This document shows, piece by piece, positions 12,189-38,366 of a DNA stretch of 64,000 nucleotides (its first letter is position 1; every line of letters starts with the position of its first letter). The stretch spans positions 1 to 64,000 of the forward strand of contig JADCDI010000001.1 in NCBI GenBank assembly GCA_020251025.1, written 5' to 3'. The notes beneath the pieces are model-generated. The model saw only the letters and a program-made list of their open reading frames with translations, searched no databases and was not told the origin of the DNA. The DNA is from Rhodobacter sp. (GTDB lineage: Bacteria; Pseudomonadota; Alphaproteobacteria; Rhodobacterales; Rhodobacteraceae). A program made the position numbers and the translations under genes.

Positions 12189-13259
12189 TCACCTTATCCG
12201 TTGTCCGGCCTGATCGAAGAAAAGCAGGTCTTCTGTCCGGAAGCGCGCTTCAAGCTTTTGGCCAGGGGCCAGTTCGCGTCCATTGTCCACAAGCGCCGTC
12301 AGAAGCCGTGCGGACCCCGCAGGGCGGGCATGGACAAGAGAGTCCGAGCCGAAATGCTCAACGATCTCGACCGTCACTTCCAGTGACTGGTCCCCGGTAC
12401 GCCCCAGGACCTGCGGTCGCAGGCCAACGGTCACCCCGGCCCCTTCGGCAAGGGCCAATCCAGGCTCCGGACATCTGATCTTTTGCCCGTCGCATTCAGA
12501 GAGCATCAGATATCCGCCCTGCAGACGGGCGGTCAGAAAGTTCATCTTCGGGCTGCCGATGAAGCCTGCGACAAATACGGTGTCGGGATCGTCGTAAAGC
12601 TGCAGCGGGCTGCCCATCTGTTCGATCCTGCCGTCACGCAGGACGACGATCTTTGTGGCAAGCGTCATCGCTTCGACCTGGTCATGGGTCACGTAGATGA
12701 TTGTTGCGCCAAGGTTCTTGTGCAACCGGGCAATCTCCACCCGCATGTGGACACGCAGGTCAGCGTCAAGGTTGGACAGGGGTTCGTCAAAAAGAAACAG
12801 CTTCGGGGCTTTCACGATGGCCCGGCCGATGGCGACACGCTGGCGCTGGCCGCCGGACAGCGTTGCGGGTTTGCGGTCAAGCCAGGGTTCAAGCTGCAGG
12901 ATACGGGCGGCTTCGGCGACTTTGGCGGCGACCTCAGGCTCGGGCCGCTTGGCAGTGCGCAGGGCGAAGGCAATGTTGTCGCGCACCGACATATGCGGAT
13001 AAAGCGCATAGGTCTGAAAGACCATCGCCAGATCACGGTCATAGGCCGGGGCATCGGTCACATCCCGGCCATCGACGAAGATGCGGCCTGAATCTGCGGA
13101 TTCCAACCCGGCGATCAACCGCAGAAGGGTGGATTTTCCGCAGCCCGACGGTCCGACGAACACGCAGAATGCGCCGTCATCGACCACCAGCGACACGTCG
13201 CGCGTCACGATCTGTCCGGAAAAGCGCTTGGTCAGGTTTTCGATGCGAAGCTGCGCCAT
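12189..13259 (-). CDS. Sugar ABC importer ATPase, UgpC/MalK family
   Basis: ATPase of 356 residues for a CUT1-type carbohydrate importer. Walker A GPSGCGKS is at 36-43, the signature LSGGQRQ at 135-141, Walker B LFLFDE at 155-160, and a C-terminal TOBE/OB regulatory domain (from about residue 240) is present as in MalK/UgpC. It closes the operon nanE-ROK fusion, binding protein, two permeases, ATPase; 3 bp separate it from the permease gene. Such ATPases can serve several importers. Confidence 0.93.
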   Translation of the reverse strand: MAQLRIENLTKRFSGQIVTRDVSLVVDDGAFCVFVGPSGCGKSTLLRLIAGLESADSGRIFVDGRDVTDAPAYDRDLAMVFQTYALYPHMSVRDNIAFALRTAKRPEPEVAAKVAEAARILQLEPWLDRKPATLSGGQRQRVAIGRAIVKAPKLFLFDEPLSNLDADLRVHMRVEIARLHKNLGATIIYVTHDQVEAMTLATKIVVLRDGRIEQMGSPLQLYDDPDTVFVAGFIGSPKMNFLTARLQGGYLMLSECDGQKIRCPEPGLALAEGAGVTVGLRPQVLGRTGDQSLEVTVEIVEHFGSDSLVHARPAGSARLLTALVDNGRELAPGQKLEARFRTEDLLFFDQAGQRIR

Positions 13260-13262
13260 GTT

Positions 13263-14090
13263 CTATCCCTTGACCGCCCCTGCAACCATCGAGCCGCTGA
13301 TCCGTCGGTACATCACAAGGCCCAGTACCAGCGGGGGCAGCGCGGCCACAACCATCACAGCCGCTGCGGTACCCCATTGGACTCCGCCGCCCGAGGTCGC
13401 AAAGAAGAACGAGGCCCCGACCGTCATCGGCACGGCATCGCGGGTGGTCAGAATCAGGCCGAACAGAAACTCGTTCCATGCCGTGATGAAACCGAAAACG
13501 AAGGTGGTGATCAGCGCGGGACGACACAGCGGCAGGACGACCTTGATCAAAAGCCGCGGCACTCGGGCACCGTCCATATATGCCGCCTCTTCGATCTCGG
13601 CCGGAATTTCGGCCACGGCGTTGACCAGCATCAGCAGCGCAAGAGGCAGATTGACGACGGCCAGGATCAGGCCCAGCCCCAGTCTGGTATCCAGCAGGCC
13701 GATGACCGAGTACATCATGTAAAGCGGGATGGCAAAGATGATCAGCGGCAGCGCGCGCAGGTTCACCACCAGCGGAAACAGCACGCCGCGACCGGTGCCG
13801 CGCCGCACCATCGCCCAGGCCAGCGGAAAGGCCACGATCATCGGCAGCAGGGCCCCGATCAGGGCGGCGACAGAGGAATTCCACAGATAGTGGTAGACAT
13901 TCAAACGGTCGCTGACCGTCAGGACCGTGGCAAAGTTCTCCAGCGTCGGGGCCTTGATCCACAGCGAGGGGTTCCGCGACACCTCGCCCGGCGGCTTGAA
14001 GGCGGTGATCAGGGTGGCCAGCACGGGGAAGTTCATCGCGAAAGCTGCGATGGCAAAGACGATCCAGCGCAGGGTCAGGCGCGGCTTCAT
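13263..14090 (-). CDS. Sugar ABC importer permease, MalG-like
   Basis: Inner-membrane permease of 275 residues with six predicted membrane helices and the EAA loop at EIEEAAYMDGARVPRLLIKV (about residues 180-199), which contacts the ATPase. The start overlaps the preceding permease gene by 4 bp (ATGA). It belongs to the CUT1 family, with its MalF-like partner upstream. Confidence 0.92.
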   Translation of the reverse strand: MKPRLTLRWIVFAIAAFAMNFPVLATLITAFKPPGEVSRNPSLWIKAPTLENFATVLTVSDRLNVYHYLWNSSVAALIGALLPMIVAFPLAWAMVRRGTGRGVLFPLVVNLRALPLIIFAIPLYMMYSVIGLLDTRLGLGLILAVVNLPLALLMLVNAVAEIPAEIEEAAYMDGARVPRLLIKVVLPLCRPALITTFVFGFITAWNEFLFGLILTTRDAVPMTVGASFFFATSGGGVQWGTAAAVMVVAALPPLVLGLVMYRRISGSMVAGAVKG

Positions 14091-14953
14091 GGTGCCCGCC
14101 CCCGCAGCAGCCGCTGCGCAACGGAAAGAAGCACAAAGGCCGTGGCAAAAAGAAGGATGGCGGCCGCCAGTGCCTTGCCGATCTCGCCCCGGCGCAGAAA
14201 GCTTTCATAGATGTAGATCGATATCGAGGTGGTGGACCCGCCCGGACCCGCGCCGACAAGGGTGTAGATGTTGTCGAAAACCCGGAACCCGTCGATGAAT
14301 CTGATGAAAAGCGCCACGAAGACCGTGGGCATCATCAGCGGCAGTTCGATCTTCCAGAACAGCCGCCAGGGCCGGGTGCCGTCAACCGCCGCCGCCTCTC
14401 GCAGGTCTTGCGGGATTGACTGGCAGGCGGTCAGGAACAGAAGGAAAGCGAAGGGAGTCCATTGCAGCGTCTCGGCCACGACAACGGTCTTGAACACGTT
14501 TGCCGGGCCAAGGAACGACGGGGACCAGCCAAACCAGCTGTAAAGGTAATGGGGAACAGGACCTGCGAATTCGTGTAGGACCAGCCGATACATCAGACCC
14601 ATCATCGCCGGGGCCACAATCATCGGGATGATCAGGATGGCAACCGTCCAGCCATGCGCCCGGGCCAGGGGTGCCAGATAGACCGCAAGGGCCAGGCCCA
14701 GCCCGCATTGCAAAAGCGCCGTGATCGCCCCGAAGCGCAGGGAAAACCAGGCCGCCTGCCAGAAAGTCGGGTCGGCAGTAGCATCCCGGAAGTTCTTCAA
14801 CCCCGAGAATTGTGGTGCGGTCAGCGTCTGAAAGCCGGTTTCGGAAAAGCCGTAGACCAGGCTCAGCACGGTCGGAAAACCAAGAACTGCCAGCAGGAAC
14901 AGCACCAGGGGCCCGGCAAGCAGGGCGTTTTCGACAGATCGTCCCGGCGTCAT
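14087..14953 (-). CDS. Sugar ABC importer permease, MalF-like
   Basis: Permease of 288 residues with six membrane helices and an EAA loop (DLREAAAVDGTRPWRLFWKI). The frame is open from 15010, but the ATG at 14953 is chosen because GAGGAG lies 6-7 bases before it and the extension would overlap the preceding gene region. It pairs with the MalG-like permease that follows with a 4-bp overlap. Confidence 0.92.
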   Translation of the reverse strand: MTPGRSVENALLAGPLVLFLLAVLGFPTVLSLVYGFSETGFQTLTAPQFSGLKNFRDATADPTFWQAAWFSLRFGAITALLQCGLGLALAVYLAPLARAHGWTVAILIIPMIVAPAMMGLMYRLVLHEFAGPVPHYLYSWFGWSPSFLGPANVFKTVVVAETLQWTPFAFLLFLTACQSIPQDLREAAAVDGTRPWRLFWKIELPLMMPTVFVALFIRFIDGFRVFDNIYTLVGAGPGGSTTSISIYIYESFLRRGEIGKALAAAILLFATAFVLLSVAQRLLRGRAP

Positions 14954-15006
14954 GTCCACTCCTCGGGTCAGGCACGGGCAGATCATGCCGCCCGTGCCCG
15001 CTGCTG

Positions 15007-16311
15007 TCACTTCAGCAGATCCGTCATCGCTGCGGCGGTGTTCTTCAGCGCCGTGTCCAGATCCTGGGTACCCGCCCAGTAGCCGGTGAACTCCTTGGCC
15101 TGCGCTTCATAGACCGACAGCGCATTTTCCGAAGTGCCGCCGTTCATCACAAAGCCGTAGGTCGAGGCATATTCACCGACCTGAACCAGATCGGGCCGGT
15201 CAGCCACCAGCTTGGCCGCCGTTTCTGACGCAAGGCCCGGCGCACCGCCCGCCTTGGCGTAGGCAAGGGCGGCCTCTTCGGTGGACAGCCACTGCAGGAA
15301 GGCAATCGCACCATCCTTGTTTTCGGCGGCCTTGTTCAGACCAAGGCCCAGCCCATGAATATGGGTAAAGCGCCCGTCCGGACCGGCAGGCGGCGCGGTG
15401 GTCCCCGTCGCGGCCTGCGCCGCGGTCAACTCGCCCGCCGCCGCGTTCCATTGCACCATGGCCGCCACCTGGCCGGATGCATAGGCCGCATTCGCCTCGG
15501 CATATTCATAGGATGTGGAATCGGGCGGGGTCGCGCCAAGGTCAAACAGCATCTTGGCCTGCGACAGCGCGGTGCGGAAGGCCTCGCTGTCGACGGTGAT
15601 CGCGCCCGTGTCATCCATCCAGTTGCCGCCATAGCTGCGCGGCCAGGAATGGAACACCATCATGTTGAACAACAGGTTCTTGGCCTGGATCACCGTGCCA
15701 TAGCGGGTGGGGCTTTCGGGGTTGATCGACTGGGTGAAGTAAAGCGCGTTGGCAACGAAATCCTCCCAGGTCCAGTCGGCGGGGGCTTTGGGTTCCAGCG
15801 CTTTGCCAAGATGTTTCATCGCAATTTCCGAATACTTCGCCTTTGCGGCGTCATCGGCCAGAAGCGCGTCGATCAGGTCGGTGCGATAGTAAAGAAAGTG
15901 CAGCGACAGGTCGGTTGGCACGCCATACTGCTGACCGTCGAACTGCATGGTCTTGAGGACCGTATCGCCAAAGACGGCCCCGGCCTGGTCAGAAAGGGTG
16001 ACCGGTTCCATGAACGGCGCATAGCGCCCGATCGAATAGGTGGCGATCAGGTTGATGTCAAAGGCGGTGCTGCCTGCGGCAAGGTCGACCTGAAGCTTGT
16101 CGAAGAAACCGTCGCGCGAGGTGAACAGCAGTTCAACCTTGTTTTCCTCTGCAAGATCTGCCTTGGCGTTGTAAAGTTCGGTCACGGCACGCAGGGCCGC
16201 TTCTTCGGGGCCGCCGGGCCAGCCGAGTACGGTCACTTCGGCATTGGCGGCACCGCCTGCTGCAAGTGCCAGCGCTGCGGCACCGGCGCGGAGACAGGTC
16301 CTGAAGGTCAT
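15007..16311 (-). CDS. Periplasmic sugar-binding protein, family 1
   Basis: Secreted solute-binding protein of 434 residues. A Sec signal peptide ends near residue 24 (GGAANA-EV). The mature part has the layout of family 1 extracellular sugar-binding proteins ([11 protein letters not shown]-like ligand cleft and a Trp-rich C-terminal half). A strong GAGAGGAAAA site precedes the ATG, which overlaps the stop of the NanE-ROK gene by 4 bp. From the operon, the ligand is probably N-acetylmannosamine, a sialic acid or a related amino sugar; this is inference. Confidence 0.9.
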
Positions 16312-17873
16312 GGGTTTTCCTCTCTGTTTGGTTGTCTTTGTCTTGAAAGATCGGCAATTCCGATGACGCCGGCATCCCTGCCAAGCGCTGCGGAGCGCAG
16401 TGTGGGGCGCACCAAAGGCTGCAGATGCGCCACCGCCCGGGCCACACGATCGATGTAGCCGGAAGCCAACCCGACACCACCGCCGATCACGGTGAAGCGC
16501 GGATCGAACATCAGTTGAAGGTCGTGGGCCAGCCGGGCAACCCGGCGCGCCGACGTCTCGATCACGGCATCGGCGGCGGCATTGCCGGCGGCGGCCGCCG
16601 CAAAGACCGCGCGCGCATCCGGCGGCAGACCAAGCCGCGCCCCCTCGGCAGCAATCCAGCGGCCCGAGGCACCATCTTCGAACCTGGTCCCGTCGCCCTC
16701 CGGCAGGGGCATGACCTGCCCGAAATGGCCCGCCACCCCGCCGCGCCCCTGCAGCAGACGACCGTTGGCAACGACCCCGCCGCCAACCCCTGTCGAGACG
16801 GTCAGGAAGACAACATCCTTGCCCTCGCCGGCGCCATGGGCAAATTCGCCCCAGGCCGCAGCCTGCGCGTCATTTGCCAGCGCCACCGGCACGCCCAAAG
16901 CCGTGCTTGCCGCCCGGTGCAAAGGAAAGCGTCCTTCGAAGGCCAGGGTCCCCGGATTGAGGGCGCGCCAGTGGTTGTCCTTGATCAGGCCGGTGACCGT
17001 CACGCCCGCGCTGGCGAAGCGCCCGGTCCAGGGCCGGGCAAGGTCGGCCATCTGGCGCACCCAGGCCTCGGGTCCGGCATCACGGTCGGTTGCAGCTTCG
17101 ATCCGGTCAAGCACCGTCGCCCCCTGAACCAGGGCCACCAGCAGCTTGGATCCTCCCAGATCAACGGCCAGCGACGGCGCATCCTGCGTTCCTTTTGGCG
17201 CAGCACCTGCTGCCGCGAGGGCATCGGCGAACCATCCGGTCACATGTTCGGTGCGGGTAATGGCGGACCCCACGACAACGGCGTCCGCACCCGCCTGAAC
17301 GGCCCGCGCCGCCAGGGCAGGGCTGTGATAGCGCCCTTCGGCAATCACGAAACCACCGGTCTTGCGCAGGGCTGTCACCAGATGCAGGTCCGGTGCCTCC
17401 GGAACCGGCCCGCCGGTATAGCCGGACAGGGTGGAGCCAAGCACCGCAACCCCCAGCCCATGGGCAGCGATGCCATCCTCGGGAAACGCGCAATCGGCCA
17501 TTGCAAGGCACCCCGCGCCGTGGATCGCCGCCACAAGGCCGGCCCGGGGCACCGGACGATCACGGTCCGTCGCGTCAAAGGCGATGATGTCTGCGCCCGC
17601 CTCCGCCAGGGCCAGCACGTCTTCCTGCAAAGGCGTGATCCGCACGAAACTGCCCGGCACGTCGCGCTTGACCAGGCCGATGATGGGCACCGGGGTCAGC
17701 TTTCGCACCGCCCGCAGGTTTTCGGTACCTTCGATGCGCAATCCGGCAGCCCCGCCGGCCAAAGCGGCCAGAGCGAATGCGGCCACAATCTCGGGCCGGT
17801 CCATCGGCCCTCCGGGCACCGGCTGGCACGAAACGACAAGCCCGCCGCGCAATCTGTCAAGAAGTCCCGGCAT
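16308..17873 (-). CDS. nanEK: Fusion of N-acetylmannosamine-6-phosphate 2-epimerase (NanE) and a ROK-family kinase
   Basis: Bifunctional protein of 521 residues. Residues 1 to about 222 are a NanE TIM barrel ([14 protein letters not shown], the catalytic Lys in GLVKRDVP at 69, AEGRYHSP at 178-185), converting ManNAc-6-P to GlcNAc-6-P. From about 234 a ROK kinase follows (DLGGSK at 238-243, ND at 334-335, STGVGGG at 360-366), expected to phosphorylate ManNAc. The ROK zinc motif CxCGxxGC after GHFGQ is absent: that place reads [11 protein letters not shown]. The ATG at 17873 with AGGGGGAA in front was chosen over the longer frame to 17951. It heads the importer operon. No NanA lyase is in the window. 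Confidence 0.88.
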
Positions 17874-17910
17874 GATTCCCCCTGCTTGCGCAAGGGTGCT
17901 GTCCGGCTGG

Positions 17911-17942
17911 CCGTTATGCAACAGAAACCCAACGGTTATGCA
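17911..17942 (-). promoter_or_regulatory. Pair of 10-bp direct repeats upstream of nanEK, possible operator
   Basis: On the minus strand TGCATAACSG occurs twice with a spacing of exactly 22 bp (17933-17942 and 17911-17920), about 40-70 bases before the nanEK start. Two helical turns between identical half sites suggest a protein-binding site. No regulator gene is adjacent, so the assignment is tentative. Confidence 0.4.
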
Positions 17943-18118
17943 CCGCTTCACCCGGAAAGCCCAAGCGGGCGCAACACATCATCCGGTTCGCACTGGCACC
18001 AGAGGTTGTGGCAGCTTTCTGCGGCATTCCCGCGCGTCACGTTGATGCCGGGCAGGGCGATCCGTTTCCATCCGGCCAGGGCGGGCGGCATGTACCTGGA
18101 TTCCGGCGCGGCTGGCCT

Positions 18119-18326
18119 GCAACGACTTGGCAAGGGCGATGCAACCAGGACGACCTTGGTCACGACACCCTTTTCCTTAAGGCGGATCGTATCTTTCAGC
18201 GCGATCACGCCGAAGGGGTTCATGCCCGTCCCGGCTTTCGCCGGATCAACCCCCCTGCCGGTCTGCCCTGTCGCGCCCCGTCACGTTGCAGCCGATCACC
18301 CGTCTGGCCGGGACCAGGGGTTTTAT
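18119..18326 (-). pseudogene. Relic of the N-terminus of electron transfer flavoprotein beta subunit (etfB)
   Basis: From 18326 the minus strand reads KPLVPARRVIGCNV, close to the EtfB start MKVLVPVKRVIDYNV. The frame ends at a TGA, and after a shift MNPFGVIALKDTIRLKEKG follows from 18223, close to the EtfB segment MNPFDEIAVEEAIRLKEKG, in the right order and at nearly the right distance. After KVVLVAS the resemblance is lost. About 70 residues of a protein normally near 250 remain, with a frame break and no start. The piece lies between the nan operon and an operon that contains an acyl-CoA dehydrogenase, an enzyme class that needs ETF. Confidence 0.6.
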
Positions 18327-18342: not shown

Positions 18343-19191
18343 TCAGCAAAACTGCCGGAAGCGCCCGGCGATGACATCCAGCACCTCGGCCGGATCGCGC
18401 GTCCACCAATCCCTGGCCGAAAAGATCTCGACCTCGCAAAACCCGTCATAGGTGGCCCCTTCTTCCACGGCCTGCCGGATCGCGCGCAGGTCGGCGACAC
18501 CGTCGCCCATCATGCCCCGGTCTAGCAGCATGTGACGCGTGTTTTCCAGCCAGTCGCAAAGGTGGTAGCCCAGCACCCTGCCCTTCGCGGCGGCCAGGCT
18601 CCCGGCCAGGGTCCTGTCCCACCAGACGTGATAGACATCGACAGCGATCCCGACGTTCGGTGCGCCCACCGCTTCGGCCATCGCCAGCGCATCTGCCACG
18701 GTAAACAGGCAGGTCCGGTTGCCGCCGAACATCGGGTTCAGCGGCTCCAGCGCCAGCGCGACACCCCGTTCGGCGGCATAAGGGGCAAGCCGCGCCACCC
18801 GGTCGGCCAGACGCTTCTGCGTCTCGGCCACCCCCTTTGTGCCGGGCTCGGTGCCGCCTGTGACGATGGTCAGGACCGGCGCGCCAAGACCCGCCGCCAT
18901 GTCGATGCTCGCGCGCGCCTCGTCATCCGTTGCGGGTGCCTCGCGCCCCACGAGGAAGGGCGTGCGACACAGGCCCGCAACCTGCATTCCGGCGGCCCGC
19001 ACGCGATTGCCGATCCCGACCGCCCGCGTTCCGATCTCGCGCCGCCAGAACACGATCCCGCCATAGCCGCGCGCCGCGCAGGCATCGATCACGCGTTCGG
19101 GCGACCATCCGGCCCCGGCCCCGTCCAGGTTGTGGCCCAGGCTTGCCGTGTTCAGGGCCAGGGCCGGGTGGCCCTTCGTGAAATCCCTCAC
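18343..19191 (-). CDS. Sugar phosphate isomerase/epimerase family TIM-barrel protein
   Basis: AP-endonuclease-2-like TIM barrel (xylose isomerase-like) of about 282 residues. Metal-ligand candidates are the Glu of LALEPLNP, the Asp of IAVDVYHVWW, the His of GYHLCDW and the Glu of FCEVEIFS, in the order seen in this family. Members act as isomerases, epimerases or dehydratases on sugars and cyclitol acids. A GTG at 19191, just after the stop of the DUF993 gene, is taken as start; a TTG at 19212 would give a 7-residue longer product overlapping that gene. Last gene of the operon acyl-CoA dehydrogenase, SDR, DUF993, isomerase. Confidence 0.8.
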   Translation of the reverse strand: MRDFTKGHPALALNTASLGHNLDGAGAGWSPERVIDACAARGYGGIVFWRREIGTRAVGIGNRVRAAGMQVAGLCRTPFLVGREAPATDDEARASIDMAAGLGAPVLTIVTGGTEPGTKGVAETQKRLADRVARLAPYAAERGVALALEPLNPMFGGNRTCLFTVADALAMAEAVGAPNVGIAVDVYHVWWDRTLAGSLAAAKGRVLGYHLCDWLENTRHMLLDRGMMGDGVADLRAIRQAVEEGATYDGFCEVEIFSARDWWTRDPAEVLDVIAGRFRQFC

Positions 19192-19192
19192 C

Positions 19193-20341
19193 TTACGCCC
19201 CGTAAAGGGCAAGGAGTGTCTTCATCCGGTGCACCGCAAGGCCGGGGTCGCGCAAAAGGCCGCAGCCATCCGCCAGGCGGAACGCTTCGGTGAAATAAGG
19301 CAGGGGGCGCATGGCCTGCGCGCCCCCCGGCATGATGAAATGATCCTGAAAGCCATTCAGCCAGGCCAGGAAGACGACCCCCGTCTTGTAATACTGCGTC
19401 GGCGCGCGGAAGATCAGGCGGGCCAGCGGCACGGTCGGGTCGAGTGTGGCGCGGAAGCCTGCCACATCCCCCTGCCCCAGCAGGCCCACGGCATGCGCGG
19501 CGGCCGGGGCGAGAGGGTCGAAGATACCAAGCAGCGCGTGACTGTAGCCCTGGTCGTCACCTGCAATCAGTTCGGGATAGTTGAAATCATCGCCCGTATA
19601 CATCTTCACACCCGACGGAAGACGGCGACGCATCAGGATTTCCTTGTCCTTGTCCAGAAGGCTGATCTTGATCCCGTCCACCCTGGCCGCGTTGCGATGG
19701 ATCACCTCCAGCGCCGTTTCCAGCGCATCCCCGAACCGGGGGCTGCCCCAGTAGCCGGCAAGGGCCGGGTCGAACATCTCGCCCAGCCAGTGCAGGATGA
19801 CCGGTCTGTCACAGGCCGCAAGCACCCGGTCATAGACCTGCACATAGTCCGCAGGCCCCTTCGCAACCCGCACCAGCGCACGGCTGGCCATCAGGATGAT
19901 CCGGGCATCCAGCTTCTGGATCGCCTCGATCTGCTCAAGATAGGCGCGGATCACGTCATCGATGCCGCGCGCATCGGCGGGGTCCAGGTGGTCAGTCCCG
20001 CAGCCGTTTGCAACCAGCGCATCCGGCAGGTCTTCCCGCGTGCGGCGGATCAGCTCCAACGCCCCGGACCAGTCCAGCCCCATGCCGCGCTGCGCGGTAT
20101 CCATCGCCTCGGCAATCCCAAGGCCAAGCCCTGCCAGATAGTGGCGAAAGGCCATCGTCTTTGCCCAGTCCAGCGTCGCACGGCCCGACGGGTCGTTCGC
20201 CGTAAAGGGATCGGCAACCACATGCGCCGCAGAAAAGACCACCCGGGACGCATCGCGCCCCAGCCGTCCGGCAGAAATCGGGGTTCCTGTCAGGGTGTAG
20301 TCCGTCCTTCGCCCGCTGGCATCGGGAAGCGCGATCTTCAT
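19193..20341 (-). CDS. DUF993 family protein, DapA-like barrel
   Basis: A 382-residue member of DUF993, a family distantly related to dihydrodipicolinate synthase/N-acetylneuraminate lyase enzymes that use a Schiff-base Lys. Conserved-looking segments are VILHWLGEMFDPALAGYWG, DGIKISLLDK (candidate catalytic Lys) and SGVKMYTGDDFNYPEL. By analogy it may perform an aldol or retro-aldol step; no activity is established as far as I know. The ATG at 20341 with AGAGGA in front is preferred to a TTG 6 bases upstream. It lies 11 bp after the SDR gene and almost abuts the isomerase gene. Confidence 0.8.
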   Translation of the reverse strand: MKIALPDASGRRTDYTLTGTPISAGRLGRDASRVVFSAAHVVADPFTANDPSGRATLDWAKTMAFRHYLAGLGLGIAEAMDTAQRGMGLDWSGALELIRRTREDLPDALVANGCGTDHLDPADARGIDDVIRAYLEQIEAIQKLDARIILMASRALVRVAKGPADYVQVYDRVLAACDRPVILHWLGEMFDPALAGYWGSPRFGDALETALEVIHRNAARVDGIKISLLDKDKEILMRRRLPSGVKMYTGDDFNYPELIAGDDQGYSHALLGIFDPLAPAAAHAVGLLGQGDVAGFRATLDPTVPLARLIFRAPTQYYKTGVVFLAWLNGFQDHFIMPGGAQAMRPLPYFTEAFRLADGCGLLRDPGLAVHRMKTLLALYGA

Positions 20342-20352
20342 GACCAATCCTC

Positions 20353-21114
20353 TCAGAAACGCGGAACCAGAAGCCCGCCATCGGCGGCAATCACCTGGCC
20401 CGTCGTATAGGGAAGCCGCCCGGCGGCAAGGCTTGCGATGATGGTACCCATTTCCCCGGGCGTGCCGACGCGCGGCAGCAGCGTCAGCCCGGCTTCGGCC
20501 CGGGCGCGGTAGCTGTCGATGACCGGCGCGGTCATATCCGTGGCGATCAGGCCCGGCTGCACGTCGTAGACGTGAATCCCCTCGCGCGCCAGACGCACCG
20601 CCCAGGCTTTCGACACCATCGCTGCGGCAGCCTTGGACACGGCGTATTCCACGCGGGGTTCGGCCACGGCAACAGCATTCGACGACGTGATGTTGACGAC
20701 GGCATGGAACACCTTCCGTTCCCGTCCGATCACCCGGCGTGCGAAGGCCTGGGTCAGAAAAAACGGCGCCTTGGCGTTCACCGCCTGACAGCGATCATAG
20801 CTCGCCTCCGTCACCTCCAGCGGGTCGCCCCGGCTCATCACGCCAACGCCCGCGTTGTTGACCAGCGTCGTCAGCGGACCCAGCTTTGCCTCGACCCGTT
20901 CAAGCGCCCCGGCATGGGCCGAAATGTCGGCAACATTCATCGGAACGGCCAAGGCATCGACCCCAAGGGCACGCACCCTTTCGACTGCGTCTGCCAGATC
21001 TGCATCATCGGGCAAGCCGTTCAGTGCGACCGCAAAGCCTTCGCGGGCAAGGGCCAGCGCCGCGCCAAGCCCGATCCCGCGCGAGGCACCGGTGACAAGC
21101 GCGACGGGCGTCAT
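20353..21114 (-). CDS. Short-chain dehydrogenase/reductase
   Basis: Classical SDR of 253 residues: cofactor motif TGASRGIG at 8-15, NNAG at 86-89, catalytic Ser at 144-145, Tyr157 and Lys161 (YAVSK). It is most like 3-oxoacyl-ACP/3-hydroxyacyl-CoA type reductases but SDR substrates cannot be read from sequence. The Asn after the second strand region (ALNGLP) may favour NADP(H). Its ATG overlaps the acyl-CoA dehydrogenase stop by 4 bp, which indicates translational coupling and a role in the same pathway, possibly oxidation of a 3-hydroxyacyl-CoA. Confidence 0.9.
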   Translation of the reverse strand: MTPVALVTGASRGIGLGAALALAREGFAVALNGLPDDADLADAVERVRALGVDALAVPMNVADISAHAGALERVEAKLGPLTTLVNNAGVGVMSRGDPLEVTEASYDRCQAVNAKAPFFLTQAFARRVIGRERKVFHAVVNITSSNAVAVAEPRVEYAVSKAAAAMVSKAWAVRLAREGIHVYDVQPGLIATDMTAPVIDSYRARAEAGLTLLPRVGTPGEMGTIIASLAAGRLPYTTGQVIAADGGLLVPRF

Positions 21115-22253
21115 GCCCGCGCACCTTTCTTCAGCAATTCGCGTGCGATGATCATGCGTTGAATCTGCTGTGTGCCTTCGTAGATCTGGGTGATCTTGGC
21201 ATCACGATAGAGCCGCTCCACCTCAAAGCCGCGGATATAGCCCGAACCGCCAAAGACCTGCACGGCATCCGCCGTCCGGGCAACGGCCATGTCGCCGGCA
21301 AAACACTTGGCCATGGAACAGGCTTTGGTCGCATCCTGCCCGAGATCGATCTTCGTGGCCGCTGAACGGACGAGCAGCCGTGCGGCCTCGATATCCTTTG
21401 CCATATCGGCCAGAAGCCACTGCACGCCCTGGAATTCGGCAATCGACTTGCCGAACTGCTTGCGGGTTCCCGCGTATTCAACCGCCGCCTCCAGCCCCGC
21501 CTGAGCAATCCCGACGGCAAGCGATGCGATGCCGACGCGGCCCTTGTCCAGAACGCTCATCATCATGTGAAATCCGCGACCGGCCTGGCCCAGCAGGGCA
21601 TCGGCACCAAGCCGCACGTCGGTGAAGGTAAGCGCCCCGACCTGGGAAGCGCGCTGGCCCATCTTGTGTTCCTTCGGGCCGCGCTCGACACCCTGCGCGT
21701 GCAGGTCGACGATGAAGATCGACATGCCTCGGTTCCCGGCTTCTTTGTCGGTCTTTACCAGAACGAAGCCCAGGTCCGCAATGGGAGCGTTGTGAATCCA
21801 GATCTTGCCACCGTTCAGCCGCCAGCCGTCACCATCCCGTTGTGCCGTTGTGCGTATGCCCGAAACATCCGTCCCCGCCTCGGGTTCGGTGATGCAGTAG
21901 GCAACCTTCGTCTCCATCGCCAGGATCGGCGCCAGAAGCTTGCGCTGCACCTCGGTGCCGTGCTGCACGAGAAGGGTCGAGATCAGCTCGACCAGCCCGC
22001 ACTGGTCTGCGACCGAAGCATAACCGCGCGACAGCTCCTCCATGACCACGGCATAGGTCAGCGTGTCGAAGCCCGGACCACCCATCGACTCCGGCACCCC
22101 GATCCCGAAGAGACCCAGTTTGGCCATTTCCAGGTAAAGCTCTTGCGGGAAACGTTCGTCGCGATCCAGCGCCTCGGCCATGGGGCGGATCACCCCGTCG
22201 GCGAAGCCGCGCGCCATGTCCCGCACCTGGACCTGTATTTCGGTCAAAACCAT
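21111..22253 (-). CDS. Acyl-CoA dehydrogenase
   Basis: FAD-dependent acyl-CoA dehydrogenase of 380 residues, normal length. Family signatures are CITEPEAGTDVSGI (FAD and substrate contacts), KIWIHNA, and C-terminal QIYEGTQQIQR whose Glu is at the position of the catalytic base of short/medium-chain enzymes. It introduces an alpha,beta double bond in an acyl-CoA and passes electrons to ETF. First gene of a four-gene operon; an operator-like site lies 14 bp upstream of the start. Confidence 0.93.
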   Translation of the reverse strand: MVLTEIQVQVRDMARGFADGVIRPMAEALDRDERFPQELYLEMAKLGLFGIGVPESMGGPGFDTLTYAVVMEELSRGYASVADQCGLVELISTLLVQHGTEVQRKLLAPILAMETKVAYCITEPEAGTDVSGIRTTAQRDGDGWRLNGGKIWIHNAPIADLGFVLVKTDKEAGNRGMSIFIVDLHAQGVERGPKEHKMGQRASQVGALTFTDVRLGADALLGQAGRGFHMMMSVLDKGRVGIASLAVGIAQAGLEAAVEYAGTRKQFGKSIAEFQGVQWLLADMAKDIEAARLLVRSAATKIDLGQDATKACSMAKCFAGDMAVARTADAVQVFGGSGYIRGFEVERLYRDAKITQIYEGTQQIQRMIIARELLKKGARA

Positions 22254-22391: not shown

Positions 22392-23408
22392 ATGCAGCCA
22401 AGCGGACTTCGCACCTTTGGCCGGTCGGGGCTGAAGGTTACAACCTTTGCTTTCGGCACGGCACCGGTCGGCAACCTGTTCCGGCCCATTGACGATGCAA
22501 CGTCGGATGCGATGTTCCAAACCTCGTGGGACGCCGGAATCCGCTTTTACGACACCGCTCCGATGTACGGGCACGGACTGGCCGAGTTGCGCACCAGCGA
22601 GAACCTGCGCTGGAAGCGGCGTGACGATTTCGTGCTGTCGTCCAAGGTCGGGCGGCGTCTGGTCCCGGCAAGGCGCGAGACGATCGATTTTGCGCCCTGG
22701 ACGCAAGGCGCGCCGTTCAGGATGGAGTTCGACTATACCTACGATGGCACGATGCGCACGTTCGAGGACAGTCTTCAGCGGCTGGCGCTGGAACGGATGG
22801 ACATCGTTTTCATCCACGACATCGACGTTTTCACGCGCGGCAAGGACCAGCCAGAGGTCTTCAGGCAGGCCATGGACGGCTGCTACAAGGCGCTGGAGCG
22901 GCTGCGCGGCGAAAAGGTGGTCACCGCCATCGGTGTGGGCGTCAATGAATGGGAGGTCTGCCATGAGGCGCTGAAGCAGCGGGATTTCGACTGCTTCCTG
23001 CTGGCGGGTCGCTATACCCTTTTGGAACAGGAGGCGCTGGATAAGTTCCTGCCGCTTTGTGAACAGCGCGGTGCGGCCGTTCTGGTCGGGGGCGGGTTCA
23101 ACTCGGGCATCCTGGCGACGGGGGCAAAGCCCGGGGCGAAGTACAACTATGCCCCGGCACCGGCGCATGTGATGGAGAAGGTCGCCAGGATCGAGGCGGT
23201 CTGCACCGAGTACGGCGTTCCGCTTCCGGCGGCGGCCTTGCAGTTCGTGGTGGCCCATCCGGCGGTGCCGTCGTTCTGTGCCGGCACGCGGACGGTGGAA
23301 CAGCTCAAGCAGAACCTGGCCTGGTTCAGCCAGCCGATCCCGGCAGAGTTCTGGGCGGCCCTGAAACAGAAGGGCCTGCTGCGCGAGGATGCGCCGGTTC
23401 CGTCATAA
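22392..23408 (+). CDS. Aldo/keto reductase, aldose 1-dehydrogenase-like
   Basis: NAD(P)-dependent oxidoreductase of 338 residues with the AKR barrel. RTFGRSGLKVTTFAFGTAP at the N-terminus, FYDTAPMYGHG (active-site Asp and Tyr), VLSSKVGR (Lys) and FIHDID (His) mark the catalytic tetrad. The type resembles D-threo-aldose 1-dehydrogenase/L-fucose dehydrogenase, which oxidise sugars to lactones. The frame is open from 22332, but the ATG at 22392 follows a G-rich site and starts at the family's usual place. Divergent from the acyl-CoA dehydrogenase operon; the promoter region holds operators a and b. Confidence 0.9.
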   Translation: MQPSGLRTFGRSGLKVTTFAFGTAPVGNLFRPIDDATSDAMFQTSWDAGIRFYDTAPMYGHGLAELRTSENLRWKRRDDFVLSSKVGRRLVPARRETIDFAPWTQGAPFRMEFDYTYDGTMRTFEDSLQRLALERMDIVFIHDIDVFTRGKDQPEVFRQAMDGCYKALERLRGEKVVTAIGVGVNEWEVCHEALKQRDFDCFLLAGRYTLLEQEALDKFLPLCEQRGAAVLVGGGFNSGILATGAKPGAKYNYAPAPAHVMEKVARIEAVCTEYGVPLPAAALQFVVAHPAVPSFCAGTRTVEQLKQNLAWFSQPIPAEFWAALKQKGLLREDAPVPS

Positions 23409-23805
23409 CCGGATGTTGCCTGCCGGCCGGCCTTCATGGCCCGGCCGCGCCGGGGCGGACAAGTGTTCCCAAGGGTCATGGCGTGATCGACCGCCTGCAC
23501 GGCGGCGCAAAACAGCGACAGCAGAAACGGCCGATCCCCCGGCATCAAGGTGCGACATCCGCTTGGGCGACGCCATCGATCCCGCCTTTCGGTGCGCCAA
23601 CCGCCCAGCCGCCAACCACCTTGTGCCGGGGATCGTCCAGGCCGGCATGCCGGACCTGGGACCCGCAAAGGTGGAACTGCAAGATACTGTTGAACCCCGG
23701 TGCAGCGGGGTTCCGGCAGACAGATTGTCAAAGTGCCGCAAGTTTTGCGCCGCGGCCCCGGCGCGCAAGCGCAGCGCCACATTCTGGCGGATCATCCCAA
23801 TCCCT
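23409..23805. other. Gene-free stretch between convergent genes
   Basis: About 400 bp between the convergent aldo/keto reductase and enoyl-CoA hydratase genes. The only structure noticed is a hairpin AACCCCG-N6-CGGGGTT at 23693-23712, which could help terminate leftward transcription but has no T-run. The reading frames here show no domain. Confidence 0.5.
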
Positions 23806-24573
23806 TCAGAAATCGGGTTTGCGCTTGTCGCGGAAGGCGGCAAGCCCCTTGGCCAGATCGGGCGAGGCTGCGGCGATGGTTCCGGCCAGCGCCTCGATCA
23901 CGCGTTCCCGTTCCTCTGCCTCGGCGGCGTTGATCAGCATCTTGGTCAGTTCGGTGGCGCGGGGCGCGCGCGCGCGAAGCCGCCCGATAACCTGATCTGC
24001 GGCCGCAAGTCCCTGGCCCTGCGGCACAACCTGATCGACGATCCCCAGTGCCAGGGCCTGGTCGGCGGTAAAGACCTCTCCCATCAGGGCCATGCGGCGG
24101 ACGACCTGCGCGCCAAAGCGGCGGACGGCGCGCTGAGTGCCGGACCAACCGGGAATAACCCCGAGGCCGGTTTCCGGCAAGCCAAGCTTCACATGCGCCT
24201 CGGCGATGCGCAGGTCGGCACAGGCGGCAAGCTCCAGCCCCCCGCCCAGGCAATGGCCGTTCAGCACCGCAATCACCGGTACCGTCAGGCGGGCGAGCGC
24301 ATCAAAGGCGAGGTGACCGTCGCGCAGCCAATGACGGCCGAAGTCGTCCGGCGACAGGCTGGACCAGCTGGCGATGTCGCCTCCGGCGCAGAAGGACTTG
24401 CTGCCCTCGCCGGTCAGGACGACCGCGCAGACCCCGGCGCGTTCGATCTGGCGACATAAGGCAAGCAGCGCGTCGACCATCCCGGCATCAAGCGCGTTGT
24501 GCCTGTCGGCCCTGCGGATCGTCAGACGCGCCACCTTTTCCGAGATGGCAAGGTCAAGCCGGGGGTCGGTCAC
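23806..24573 (-). CDS. Enoyl-CoA hydratase/isomerase (crotonase) family protein
   Basis: Crotonase-fold protein of 255 residues. The CoA-binding CAGGD is at 62-66, the oxyanion-hole segment GHCLGGGLEL at 106-115 with Glu114, and the second acidic residue Glu134 in GLPETGLGVIPG. Both glutamates of classic hydratases are present, so hydration of an enoyl-CoA is likely. Its ATG overlaps the CoA-transferase stop by 4 bp; the two form one unit controlled from operator c. Confidence 0.92.
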   Translation of the reverse strand: MTDPRLDLAISEKVARLTIRRADRHNALDAGMVDALLALCRQIERAGVCAVVLTGEGSKSFCAGGDIASWSSLSPDDFGRHWLRDGHLAFDALARLTVPVIAVLNGHCLGGGLELAACADLRIAEAHVKLGLPETGLGVIPGWSGTQRAVRRFGAQVVRRMALMGEVFTADQALALGIVDQVVPQGQGLAAADQVIGRLRARAPRATELTKMLINAAEAEERERVIEALAGTIAAASPDLAKGLAAFRDKRKPDF

Positions 24574-26141
24574 AGTTCAAGGCCCATCGGTTCGGGCCGG
24601 AACAGTCGCGCGTCCATTGTCTTGAGGTCCTTCGCAACGGCAAGCGGCGTTGCGGCCTGATCCAGCACATCGCGTTGCAGGTCAAGGCCGGGGGCGATTT
24701 CGGTGACCATCAGCCCGCCTTCCAAAAGCCGCAGCACACAGCGTTCGGTGACATAGGTGATGTCCTGGCCCTGCATCCGCGCGCGTTTCCCCGAAAAGCT
24801 GACCTGATCGACCCGTGGCACGATCTTGGCGATCCTGCCTTCTGCGTCGATGACCAGCTTGCCATCCCCGATATGCATTTTTGCCCCGGCATTGAAGCTG
24901 CCCGAGAAGACGATCTTGCGCGCGCGCGCGGTGATGTCGACGAAACCTCCGGCACCGGCGGTTCGGTGCGGTGTGGCTGACAGGCGGCTGACATTCACAG
25001 AACCTTCGGCGTCGATTTCAAGAAAGGACAGCAGCGAACAGTCAAAGCCGCCCGCCTGAAAGTAGATGAACTGGTGGGGAGAGGCGACGAAAGCCTCCGC
25101 ATTCGCGGCGCAGCCGAACTTGAAATCCAAAAGCGGCACGCCGCCAACCGCACCCTGTTCGATGACCCAGGTGACCTTGCCGTGGTGGCCTTCCTCCAGC
25201 AGAATGCGGGGGACGTTGGCCGAAATGCCGAAACCGATGTTGACCGCCCAGCCGGGCCGCATCTCCTTCGCCACGCGGCGCGCGATGACTTTGCCGACAT
25301 TGAATTCGGCCATGCGGAAGGTGTGAAGCGGCCGGAACAGCTCGCCCGAGATCGCCGGGTCGTAGGGTGTTGCGGTGGTCTGCAACTGGTCGGGCGCTTC
25401 GACAATGACGTCAACGAGGATGCCGGGGACGCGGACATCGTGCGGGCGGAAGGTGCCGGCGGCGGCGATGCGCTTGACCTGGGCGATGACGATACCGCCG
25501 GAATTACGCGCCGAGAGGGCCATCTCCATCGCGCCAAGGGTGGCCCCTTCGTGTTCGAAGGTAAGGTTGCCGTTCTCGTCCGCAGTCGTGGCGCGGATGA
25601 TCGCCACATCCGGGCGCAGCGCCGGGAAGTGCAGCCAGGTGTCGCCGTCAAATTCCACCCGCCGGACCAGCGGGCTTTGGCGGGCCAAGGCGTTCATGGC
25701 GCAGCCGTCCTGTTCAGGATCAACGAAAGTGTCCATCCCGACCGTGGTAAGCACGCCGGGCCGTTTGGCCGCCCCTTCGCGCAGCATGTCGAAAATGATG
25801 CCCGAAGGCACGTTCCACGCCGCCACATCCCCGGCCAGGATGCGCTGCCAGATCAGCGGCGGATCGGCGTTGGTGGGACCCGAAGGGTAGGAACCGCCGA
25901 TGATGCGCGTGATCATCCCCTTGTGGGCGATGTGGTCGACGCCCCTCGTGCCAAACATGTCGCCCGCAGCGATGGGATGGATGGTGGTCAACCCCCGGGG
26001 GGCACCTTCGGCAAGGAAGCGTTGGCCAAGCGCCTTGAGCACGTCATCAGGGCACAGAAGACCCGAGGACGAGTTCACAGCCACCACCGCCCCGTCCTTG
26101 ACCAGGCGCGCCGCCCCGGCGGCAGACTTTACTTTGGACAC
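24570..26141 (-). CDS. Family I acyl-CoA:acetate/propionate CoA-transferase (YdiF-like)
   Basis: Fused alpha/beta CoA-transferase of 523 residues. SSGLLCPDDVLKALG and GGSYPSGPTNADPP mark the first half, and TWVIEQGAVGGVP (about 325-337) contains the Glu that forms the gamma-glutamyl-CoA thioester in this family (Glu328). It would activate an organic acid with CoA from acetyl- or propionyl-CoA without ATP. The start is GTG at 26141, with AAGGAG 7-8 bases before it; the longer frame to 26216 would cross the operator. First gene of the pair with the hydratase. Confidence 0.9.
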   Translation of the reverse strand: MSKVKSAAGAARLVKDGAVVAVNSSSGLLCPDDVLKALGQRFLAEGAPRGLTTIHPIAAGDMFGTRGVDHIAHKGMITRIIGGSYPSGPTNADPPLIWQRILAGDVAAWNVPSGIIFDMLREGAAKRPGVLTTVGMDTFVDPEQDGCAMNALARQSPLVRRVEFDGDTWLHFPALRPDVAIIRATTADENGNLTFEHEGATLGAMEMALSARNSGGIVIAQVKRIAAAGTFRPHDVRVPGILVDVIVEAPDQLQTTATPYDPAISGELFRPLHTFRMAEFNVGKVIARRVAKEMRPGWAVNIGFGISANVPRILLEEGHHGKVTWVIEQGAVGGVPLLDFKFGCAANAEAFVASPHQFIYFQAGGFDCSLLSFLEIDAEGSVNVSRLSATPHRTAGAGGFVDITARARKIVFSGSFNAGAKMHIGDGKLVIDAEGRIAKIVPRVDQVSFSGKRARMQGQDITYVTERCVLRLLEGGLMVTEIAPGLDLQRDVLDQAATPLAVAKDLKTMDARLFRPEPMGLEL

Positions 26142-26168
26142 GGGCTGTCTCCTTCCCGGTTGGCTTTT

Positions 26169-26186
26169 AGTAACTAACCGGTTATT
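26169..26186. promoter_or_regulatory. Operator c of the catabolic regulon
   Basis: AGTAACTAACCGGTTATT, containing both GTAAC-N6-GTTAt and the perfect inner palindrome TAACCGGTTA. A single site serves the divergent CoA-transferase and aldo/keto reductase genes; it ends 27 bases before the CoA-transferase GTG. Confidence 0.68.
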
Positions 26187-26276
26187 AAGATAGCGAAGAT
26201 GGCGGCCCGGGATCAAGCCACTAATACCCGGTCGCAGGAACGAATTTCAAGGACTTGGACAGAAGGAGCGCCACCG

Positions 26277-27095
26277 GTGAACATCACTTTCCAGAAGACC
26301 CACCAACGCGCATTCGGTACGTTCCCGCTGAAGGGCGACGTTCTGCGTCAGGCGGTCCGCGATGCGGCAGAGGCCGGCTATCGCGCCTTCGACACAGCCC
26401 AGATGTACCAGAACGAGGCGGACACCGGCCTTGCGCTGGCCGGCTGCGGGCTGACGCGCGACGAGCTTTGCATCACCACGAAAGTCGGGGTCGAAAACTT
26501 CACCAAGGCCAGGTTCATGCCCTCGGTCGAGCGGTCGCTGAAGGAGCTGCGGGTCGATCATGTGGACATCCTTCTGCTGCACTGGCCGACGCCCGGCGGG
26601 GATATCCGGGAATCGCTGGAGCTCTTGCAAACGGCCAGGGATCGCGGGCATGCCCGGCATATCGGCGTGTCGAATTACACCGCCGCGATGATGGCCTTTG
26701 CCAAGACCGTGGTGTCGGACCCGCTGGTGACGAACCAGGTCGAGTTCCATCCGCTGCTGGATCAGACAAAGCTGTTGAAGGCGGCGAATGACACCGGCAT
26801 TCCCTTGTCCGCCTACTCCTCGGTCGCGCGGGGCGAGGTGTTCAGGTATCCGCTTTTTGCCGAAATCGGCGCGGGCTACGGCAAGTCGGCGGGTCAGGTC
26901 GTGCTGCGCTGGATCCTGCAGAAGGGTGTGGCGATCAACACCATGTCGACAAAGGCGGCGAACATCCGTGCAAACTTTGACGTCATGGATTTCACCCTGT
27001 CATCGATCGACATGGCGCGGATCGACGCGATGACGGCCATGAACTGCCGGATCATCGGCAAGAACCGGATCCCCTACGCCCCCGACTTCGACTGA
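26277..27095 (+). CDS. Aldo/keto reductase, 2,5-diketogluconate reductase-like
   Basis: AKR of 272 residues. FDTAQMYQNE carries the Asp and Tyr, CITTKVGVENF the Lys and LLLHWPTP the His of the catalytic tetrad. It belongs to the AKR branch with 2,5-diketo-D-gluconate reductases, different from the enzyme at 22392. The start is GTG at 26277, with GAAGGAG 8 bases before it; the upstream frame to 26199 has no such site. Divergent from the CoA-transferase operon and sharing its operator region. Confidence 0.88.
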   Translation: MNITFQKTHQRAFGTFPLKGDVLRQAVRDAAEAGYRAFDTAQMYQNEADTGLALAGCGLTRDELCITTKVGVENFTKARFMPSVERSLKELRVDHVDILLLHWPTPGGDIRESLELLQTARDRGHARHIGVSNYTAAMMAFAKTVVSDPLVTNQVEFHPLLDQTKLLKAANDTGIPLSAYSSVARGEVFRYPLFAEIGAGYGKSAGQVVLRWILQKGVAINTMSTKAANIRANFDVMDFTLSSIDMARIDAMTAMNCRIIGKNRIPYAPDFD

Positions 27096-27154: not shown

Positions 27155-28756
27155 CTAGCGGTTGCCGCGGATCAGATCTGCGGCCCGCTCGCCGATCATG
27201 ATCGACGGCGCGTTGGTGTTCGATCCCACCAGCGAGGGCATGACCGAACTGTCGCAGATGCGCAGCCCGTCGATGCCCCGCACGCGCAACTGCGGATCGA
27301 CGACGGCCATGTCATCCTTGCCCATGCGGCAGGTGCTGACCGGATGATATGAGGTGCGGCCGTACTGGCGGGCATAGGCCTCAAGGTCGGCCTGGGTCCG
27401 CACATCCCGGTCGGGAAAGCGGATGTCCTTGATGAATTTCTGCAAGGAGGGCTGGCTGAAAATCTCGCGGCTGATCTTCACGCCCGTGGCGGACATCCGC
27501 AGGTCATCGGCGTGGCCAAGGAAGTTCGGGTCCACAATGGGCGTGGCTGCCGGATCGGCGCTGCGCAGCGTGACAGAGCCGCGCGCCCTGGGGCGCAGGT
27601 TATAGCTGTTCAAAGTGATGCCCGACGCACCTTTCGGTACCGAAGGCACCCCCGCCTCGGCCCCCGCGCCACAAAGGAAATGGAACTGCAAGTCTGGGCA
27701 AGGTGCCGAACCGGGGCCGTTCGCATACCAGAAGGCACCACCTTCGACCACGTTCGAGGTGATGGGGCCGGAATTGAACAGGACATATTGCGCACCCGCC
27801 CATGCGGCCCAAAGCGGCCTGTTGTACTTGTCCAGGCTGTCGTGGCCCTTGAGTTCGGCCACAATGTCGATCCCGAAATGGTCGGTCAGGTTCTGACCGA
27901 CGCCGGGCAGGTCCTGGACAACGGTGATCCCGTGGCTTTTCAGATGCGCCGCCGGGCCGATCCCCGAAAGCATCATCAGCTTGGGGCTGCCGATGGCACC
28001 CGAAGTCACGATCACCCCGGACCCGGCGCGGACGGTGACGGGTGCGCCACCGGTGGAATATTCGGCGCCGACGGCCCGGCCCTTTTCGATCAACAGCCGC
28101 CGCACCAGGGCACCTGTGATCAGTGTCAGGTTCGGCCGTCTCAACGCGGGGCGCAGATAGCCCACAGCGGCCGAGCAGCGCCGGTTGCCGCGGATGGTCG
28201 TCTGGTAGATGCCTGCACCTTCCTGCTGCGGACCATTGAAGTCCGGGTTGTAGGGCATGCCGTATTCCTGGCAGCTTTGCACGAAGGCGCGGCTGGTCGG
28301 ATTGGGGTTGGGCAGGTTCGAAACACCCAAAGGCCCGTCCGTGCCATGCCAGCCGCCCGACAGGATCGTGTTGCCCTCGGACCGCAGGAAATACTTCTGA
28401 ATGTCCTGAAAGCCCCAGCCCTCGGCCCCTTCCGCGACCCAGCGGTCGTAGTCCGAGGGGTGGCCACGCGTGAAAATCTCGGCGTTGATCGAAGAGCCGC
28501 CGCCCAGGACCCTGGCCTGCGCATAGGGGATTTCGCGGTTGTTGGCGTGCTTCTGCGGCGCAGTGACCAGTCCCCAGGTCAGCGGGCCGGTGGTCATCCT
28601 GGCAAAGCCCACCGGCATATGGATGAGCGGGTTCCTGTCCGGACCTCCGGCCTCGATCAGACAGACCCTGGCCGAAGCGTCTTCGGTCAGTCGTGCAGCC
28701 AGAACGCAGCCTGCAGAGCCACCGCCGACAATCACATAGTCGAAGCCCTGCGCCAT
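27155..28756 (-). CDS. GMC family FAD-dependent alcohol oxidoreductase
   Basis: Glucose-methanol-choline oxidoreductase of 533 residues. The N-terminal FAD motif YVIVGGGSAGCVLAARL, the GMC signature around GGGSSINAEIFTRG, and the C-terminal active-site segment SYHPVSTCRMG (catalytic His) with VGSNTNAPSIMIGERAADLI are present. It oxidises a primary alcohol, probably to the aldehyde taken by the adjacent aldehyde dehydrogenase. No signal peptide, so cytoplasmic. The ATG at 28756 with AGGTGA in front is chosen over 28795; it starts 1 bp past the aldehyde dehydrogenase stop. Confidence 0.92.
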   Translation of the reverse strand: MAQGFDYVIVGGGSAGCVLAARLTEDASARVCLIEAGGPDRNPLIHMPVGFARMTTGPLTWGLVTAPQKHANNREIPYAQARVLGGGSSINAEIFTRGHPSDYDRWVAEGAEGWGFQDIQKYFLRSEGNTILSGGWHGTDGPLGVSNLPNPNPTSRAFVQSCQEYGMPYNPDFNGPQQEGAGIYQTTIRGNRRCSAAVGYLRPALRRPNLTLITGALVRRLLIEKGRAVGAEYSTGGAPVTVRAGSGVIVTSGAIGSPKLMMLSGIGPAAHLKSHGITVVQDLPGVGQNLTDHFGIDIVAELKGHDSLDKYNRPLWAAWAGAQYVLFNSGPITSNVVEGGAFWYANGPGSAPCPDLQFHFLCGAGAEAGVPSVPKGASGITLNSYNLRPRARGSVTLRSADPAATPIVDPNFLGHADDLRMSATGVKISREIFSQPSLQKFIKDIRFPDRDVRTQADLEAYARQYGRTSYHPVSTCRMGKDDMAVVDPQLRVRGIDGLRICDSSVMPSLVGSNTNAPSIMIGERAADLIRGNR

Positions 28757-28757
28757 G

Positions 28758-32309: not shown

Positions 32310-32320
32310 CTTCTTGCCCG

Positions 32321-33826: not shown

Positions 33827-33836
33827 GGCAGCGCCC

Positions 33837-34802: not shown

Positions 34803-34883
34803 GCCTCCCCCCTTGGCGGCCCCTGCCGCCCTTTGGCAAAAGGGGCGGCCGACAGCGCCGGCCACCCCCGTTTGTGTGGTGAC

Positions 34884-36109: not shown

Positions 36110-36246
36110 TTTCTGGCAAGGTGTGAGTCAAGAGAATTCTTCGGGCGCTGCTGCACAGTTTCCGCGCAGATTCTGTTTTGACGAACTTGCGAAGGTGCGT
36201 GTAAGCAGGTTGAACGCCTTTGTCAGAACGCCGCAGCCGGAAGACC

Positions 36247-38343: not shown

Positions 38344-38366
38344 GACCGGGTCCCTTGCCTTGGGCC

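Follow-up and report, generated by a model that had tools for sequence, protein, structure and literature searches.

Enzymes of the DHDPS/NAL superfamily, such as DapA, NanA, KdgA, HOGA, YagE and PhdJ, are built on a class I (beta/alpha)8 fold with typical C-terminal helices. In NanA, Tyr133 is the catalytic tyrosine and GxxGE is a substrate-binding motif (PMC6213981); in the L-2-keto-3-deoxyarabinonate dehydratase KdaD, the conserved superfamily tyrosine is replaced by glutamate (PMC13398020). Proteins of the DUF993 family (Pfam PF06187) already carry the NCBI label "dihydrodipicolinate synthase family protein," so that the family assignment itself is not new. One family member has a solved structure, 4dnh, whose title names SMc04132 of Sinorhizobium meliloti and which is a structural-genomics entry without an assigned function. 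A literature search on DUF993, 4DNH, the S. meliloti locus tags and gene-name combinations returned no functional data; one published expression table includes SMc04132 and SMc04133, without function.

The closest logical parallel to the pathway proposed here for DUF993 is found in the oxidative 2-deoxyribonate routes, in which an aldose is oxidized to its acid, 3-dehydrogenation and cleavage follow, and glyceryl-CoA or glycerate is formed and handled by a glycerate kinase (PMC6365646). The Klebsiella route uses CoA esters; cleavage in these pathways is by a BKACE enzyme or a thiolase, and neither DUF993 nor an acyl-CoA dehydrogenase appears in that work (PMC6365646). Here we describe a DUF993 locus in a window of 64,000 nucleotides from Rhodobacter sp. 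(contig JADCDI010000001.1, positions 1 to 64,000). What is new is the replacement of the catalytic tyrosine by histidine as a family signature, a fixed dehydrogenase-DUF993-barrel triad, a CoA pathway that lacks a thiolase and a link to glycerate kinase.

Results

The DUF993 gene (19193 to 20341, reverse strand) encodes 382 amino acids from an ATG start and is present in a single copy in the source genome. Its product matched the PF06187 profile over positions 1 to 381 of 382 (E = 1e-175, with 585 bits where the cut-off is 24 bits). Directly downstream on the same strand lies a gene for a PF01261 TIM-barrel isomerase/epimerase-like protein (18343 to 19191; E = 4e-32, 112 bits), which likely starts at the GTG at 19191 and not at the upstream TTG at 19212 given in the open reading frame table. 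Upstream, again on the reverse strand, are genes for a PRK12745-type SDR dehydrogenase with its catalytic YxxxK (20353 to 21114) and for an acyl-CoA dehydrogenase (ACAD) with the catalytic-base motif YEGT (21111 to 22253). The initial annotation had DUF993 and the barrel tightly coupled to these two genes, and the junctions bear this out: the ACAD and SDR genes overlap as ATGA, 11 nt including GAGG separate the SDR stop from the DUF993 ATG, and DUF993 joins the barrel gene as TAA-G-GTG, with 1 nt between them.

The same annotation placed the feature at 18343 to 20341. Both genes within these limits were correctly positioned, but they are only the last two of a conserved block that extends from 18343 to about 38391. 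Beyond the ACAD gene, it holds a syntenic aldo/keto reductase (AKR1; 22392 to 23408, forward strand), followed on the reverse strand by a crotonase-type enoyl-CoA hydratase/isomerase (ECH; 23806 to 24573) and a single-chain family I CoA-transferase with an EQGAVGG motif (24570 to 26216). A second, DkgB-like aldo/keto reductase (26199 to 27095) is on the forward strand. The reverse strand then encodes a GMC-family FAD alcohol dehydrogenase (27155 to 28795), an aldehyde dehydrogenase (ALDH; 28758 to 30254), a zinc-type alcohol/polyol dehydrogenase (30320 to 31366), a syntenic ribose-type (CUT2, rbs-type) ABC importer made up of permease, ATPase (32321 to 33826) and permease genes (31368 to 34865) and a periplasmic sugar-binding protein of the Peripla_BP_4, D-allose/ribose-like type (34884 to 35996). 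A TetR regulator with a PF17938 C-terminal domain, of a kind that recurs near DUF993, is encoded on the forward strand (36220 to 36915) and is followed on the reverse strand by an HbpS/GlcG-like gene with a predicted start (36920 to 37342). Heme-binding-type proteins are also encoded near the DUF993 loci of Paracoccus, Rhodococcus and Microvirga (L158, L160 and L165). The last syntenic gene of the block encodes a zinc-dehydrogenase-like protein (37345 to 38391, reverse strand) that is 65% identical in S. meliloti pSymA. The catalytic motifs of the ACAD, SDR, CoA-transferase, ECH and ALDH of the window are intact.

Synteny of this block of approximately 20 kb (18343 to 38391) extends to S. meliloti pSymA (near 767 kb), Paracoccus ferrooxidans pFER3 and a Roseateles plasmid, with most genes 64 to 89% identical across these replicons. 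Moreover, the gene order ACAD-SDR-DUF993-TIM recurs in many genera, and the arrangement in the window is therefore not due to chance. The cluster probably serves to break down a sugar-like compound. Blocks in relatives add a glycerate kinase and ETF-beta/alpha(-QO) genes, both of which have been lost from the locus in the window. Where relatives carry glycerate 2-kinase, between the ECH and AKR1 genes, the window has a gene-free gap (23409 to 23805), and of ETF only a decayed 5' fragment of ETF beta in two frames is left directly after the barrel gene (18140 to 18326, reverse strand; tblastn 1.4e-10), where the gene is intact in same-genus relatives (L179 and L187). Elsewhere, the source genome has one MOFRL glycerate kinase (G000:C45) and a housekeeping ETF. 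One same-genus genome (G400) carries, besides a copy of the window type, a second DUF993 gene (L180) that is linked to LacI and GMC genes and is 51% identical. Adjoining the block in the window are an open reading frame for a NanE-NanK fusion (16308 to 17951) and a CUT1 sugar ABC transporter (12189 to 16311), probably for the use of N-acetylmannosamine or sialic acid. The NanE-NanK gene and CUT1 transporter (12189 to 17951) were rejected as parts of the DUF993 system because the syntenic blocks do not contain them.

A sequence search of solved structures with DUF993 returned 4dnh (473 bits). The AlphaFold model of DUF993 (pLDDT 89, pTM 0.89) likewise matched 4dnh best in Foldseek (TM 0.95), followed by DHDPS, PhdJ and hydratase-aldolases at E values of about 1e-8 to 1e-10. 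The 4dnh protein belongs to the same family (57 to 59% identity in the structural alignment; 1.3 Å over 378 residues), but SMc04132 differs from the window-like copy on pSymA. When the model was aligned with DHDPS, HOGA and YagE by VIA, Z scores of 28 to 29 were obtained with an rmsd of 2.4 Å over about 284 residues. The model thus confirmed the proposed DapA-like fold: DUF993 has the superfamily barrel and its C-terminal helices and represents a divergent form of the DHDPS/NAL class I fold, with 11 to 19% identity to the superfamily enzymes and approximately 30 extra N-terminal residues as well as other insertions. The PF00701 (DHDPS) profile gave no match to the DUF993 family up to E = 10. 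Kinship of DUF993 with its partner barrel was also considered and rejected, since comparison of DUF993 with the profile of the barrel revealed no relation (P 0.16).

The candidate Schiff-base lysine named in the initial annotation is Lys225, in the motif DGIKIS (codon at 19667 to 19669, reverse strand). Residues 221 to 227 form strand beta6 of the model, and K225 is placed on that strand by strand order. In a local profile alignment (E = 5e-4), VDGIKIS of DUF993 paired with VGIKEA of DapA, K225 falling at the Schiff-base lysine, and YTGDD paired with LSGDD, so that (S/T)GDD after beta7 is common to both. This alignment scored 35.8, whereas none of 100 column shuffles scored above 27.3. With hhalign, the global mode was uninformative and the local mode was weak when only four DapA sequences were used; it improved with 31 sequences and distant DUF993 members. 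Profile alignment and strand order are also the basis on which K225 is equated with Lys161 of DapA. Together, these comparisons support the placement of Lys225 in the Schiff-base register of the DHDPS/NAL enzymes. All 123 aligned members carry the lysine. Because the first sample of members had been drawn by peptide patterns, one of which (DKDKEILM) adjoins K225, the subset drawn by HMM alone is the unbiased one; in its 42 members, K225 and H184 were invariant, as they were in actinobacterial members with as little as 41% identity. Hence, the lysine was found to be both conserved in the family and located on the barrel strand at which it was expected. More than 90 DUF993 positions are at least 98% conserved, K225, H184 and the GDD motif among them. 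Lys319, a further candidate, is as invariant as K225, which we counted against the explanation favored below.

Two other features depart from the superfamily. Where ILYNVP of DapA carries the catalytic beta5 tyrosine, DUF993 has ILHWLG, with His184 (codon at 19790 to 19792, reverse strand) in its place in every member checked. GxxGE, the carboxylate-binding motif after beta2, was absent from that position in all members checked, and the 3 matches among 135 sequences were chance matches elsewhere, near residue 196. The tyrosine-to-histidine change and the missing GxxGE suggest from sequence that the chemistry may differ from that of the superfamily. Given these two features and the missing PF00701 match, the chemistry of DUF993 cannot simply be read off the superfamily.

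The model of the partner barrel (pLDDT 94) matched 3ju2/3qc0 (SMc04130) and 7vpf, which are 37 to 39% identical to it (TM 0.86 to 0.90) and are all without an established physiological reaction, and then IolI-like proteins and ketose 3-epimerases. Acidic and histidine metal ligands are expected of a metal-dependent isomerase/epimerase family, and the invariant E149, D185, H188, H210, E253 and E255 of the partner fit the predicted metal site of such a family.

DUF993 was detected in approximately 9% of the sampled genomes of the phylum (36/398) and in actinobacteria. Operon statistics across the family, suggested as a check in the initial annotation, upheld the coupling: in an 80-locus sample, a dehydrogenase was encoded directly upstream in 71 of 78 assessable loci (SDR in 32, Gfo/Idh/MocA [GFO] in 39) and a TIM barrel directly downstream in 68 of 79. 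The assignment to an acyl-CoA dehydrogenase operon held for the clade of the window, but not for the sister clade and most of the actinobacterial members read, in which the partner is GFO and ACAD is missing; GFO and ACAD occurred together in only 4 of 80 loci. A quick tree grouped the proteobacterial ACAD-type members in one clade without GFO-only rows (SH-aLRT 99), and a distant Rhodococcus locus also has ACAD and SDR. Other settings are LacI-divided loci with GMC, ALDH, ECH, CoA-transferase and GFO genes. Gfo-type DUF993 operons that include NMT1 or TctC transporters repeatedly encode an uncharacterized enolase-superfamily protein of approximately 470 amino acids with a weak MR_MLE_C match (29 of 80 loci; L049:5397-6812 and relatives). 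In Enemella evansiae (Actinomycetota; L019), DUF993 and its neighbor genes branch beside the window within the alphaproteobacterial clade, which suggests horizontal transfer or contamination.

Glycerate kinase recurs near DUF993 from Proteobacteria to actinobacteria, and in Glaciihabitans and Embleya the genes are arranged as a GFO-DUF993-TIM-GlyK cassette. In the main sample, in which many flanks are short, only 8 of the 80 loci showed the kinase gene. Thiolase, searched with two good query sequences, and BKACE were each found within 8 kb of DUF993 in 0 of 80 loci, in contrast to the 2-deoxyribonate routes, which cleave by one or the other. A control on the neighbors of DapA loci had flanks of only 1.5 kb, so that its zeros are a weak control. 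Thiolases are present elsewhere in the source genome, and a thiolase could act from there, which was likewise counted against the favored explanation.

Discussion

DUF993 is most likely a lysine-dependent lyase whose substrate is a keto intermediate in the breakdown of polyols or sugar acids. According to the scheme that we propose, the upstream dehydrogenase (the SDR here, GFO elsewhere) would introduce a keto group into a polyhydroxy acid, either free or as the CoA ester, and the carbonyl would be captured by Lys225 as a Schiff base. Standing where the superfamily has its tyrosine, His184 would relay a proton for cleavage of the bond adjoining the imine, most likely a C-C bond, and the cotranslated metal-type barrel would isomerize or epimerize either the substrate or one of the fragments released. 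A likely exit product is glycerate, to be phosphorylated by glycerate kinase; the case for it is circumstantial, since the kinase gene was found in so few loci and is missing from the block of the window. In the clade of the window, a sugar- or polyol-like compound would be imported, oxidized by the GMC and aldehyde dehydrogenases and loaded on CoA, then desaturated, hydrated and oxidized, and the DUF993 step would end the route, in the position that one would normally assign to a thiolase. Because SDR/ACAD alternates with GFO, the common substrate would be a keto polyhydroxy acid and not a fatty 3-oxoacyl-CoA. On balance, we lean toward this scheme taken whole, with C-C cleavage through a Schiff base, a keto substrate made by the dehydrogenase, isomerization by the barrel and exit through glycerate.

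The Schiff-base aldolase of the initial annotation thus survives as a good working hypothesis insofar as the lysine is conserved and in register, but its reaction may not be a retro-aldol cleavage: histidine stands for tyrosine, GxxGE is missing and dehydratases and decarboxylases have the same fold. Dehydration is a serious rival because members of the fold carry it out: DUF993 might work through a Schiff base as a dehydratase or dehydratase/decarboxylase, in the manner of KdgD or KdaD, and take water, and perhaps CO2, out of the keto intermediate, with cleavage taking place elsewhere. Both of those enzymes share the fold, and KdaD, like DUF993, is a superfamily member in which the tyrosine is replaced. 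However, the substitution in KdaD, which is set beside DUF993 here by description only, is to glutamate and not histidine, and its reaction is dehydration. A separate crotonase-type hydratase in the block of the window, together with glycerate kinase and the missing thiolase, which point to cleavage, speak against a dehydratase without being decisive, and we regard it as unlikely, though the strongest of the alternatives.

LsrF is a lysine-dependent thiolase, and by analogy DUF993 might replace a thiolase on 3-oxoacyl-CoA. The clustering of CoA-transferase, ACAD, hydratase and SDR genes without a thiolase within 8 kb, and the position of the SDR gene directly upstream of DUF993, fit this reading. 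CoA esters are nevertheless unlikely to be the common denominator, because half of the assessable loci (39/78) pair DUF993 with GFO and few combine GFO with ACAD. As a substrate for the whole family, 3-oxoacyl-CoA, which had been suggested at the outset, was rejected because the GFO clade mostly lacks ACAD; it is not obligatory for the family, and a thiolase substitute appears improbable. Slightly less probable still is a conventional pyruvate aldolase of the KDG/KDO type in which the carboxylate-binding and proton-relay residues have been swapped and the reaction is unchanged. Among the best structural matches, every neighbor that carries a functional name is a pyruvate or 2-keto-acid enzyme, but the invariant His184 for tyrosine and the absence of GxxGE from its usual place make an ordinary pyruvate aldolase unlikely, and the lack of a PF00701 match up to E = 10 counts against it as well. 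A noncatalytic or regulatory relative, or a hitchhiker in an ordinary fatty-acid operon, is scarcely credible in view of the conservation of its residues and of strict synteny across phyla.

We return to the lysine-dependent lyase that we favor. A bolder form of this proposal, which we put forward only tentatively and consider rather doubtful, is that DUF993 represents a C-C lyase of a new, lysine-dependent type that has histidine for tyrosine and acts on polyhydroxy acids other than pyruvate compounds (e.g., 3-keto acids), or on the corresponding CoA esters, in an undescribed polyol or sugar route with glycerate as a product. If this were true, enzymes in the style of beta-oxidation would deliver their product to an enzyme with an aldolase fold and not to a thiolase, and the DHDPS active site would be shown to be workable with histidine instead of tyrosine. 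Should DUF993 prove to be a Schiff-base lyase for a new class of substrates, a testable role would be given to the DUF993 family, to the 4dnh structure and to the block of approximately 20 kb.
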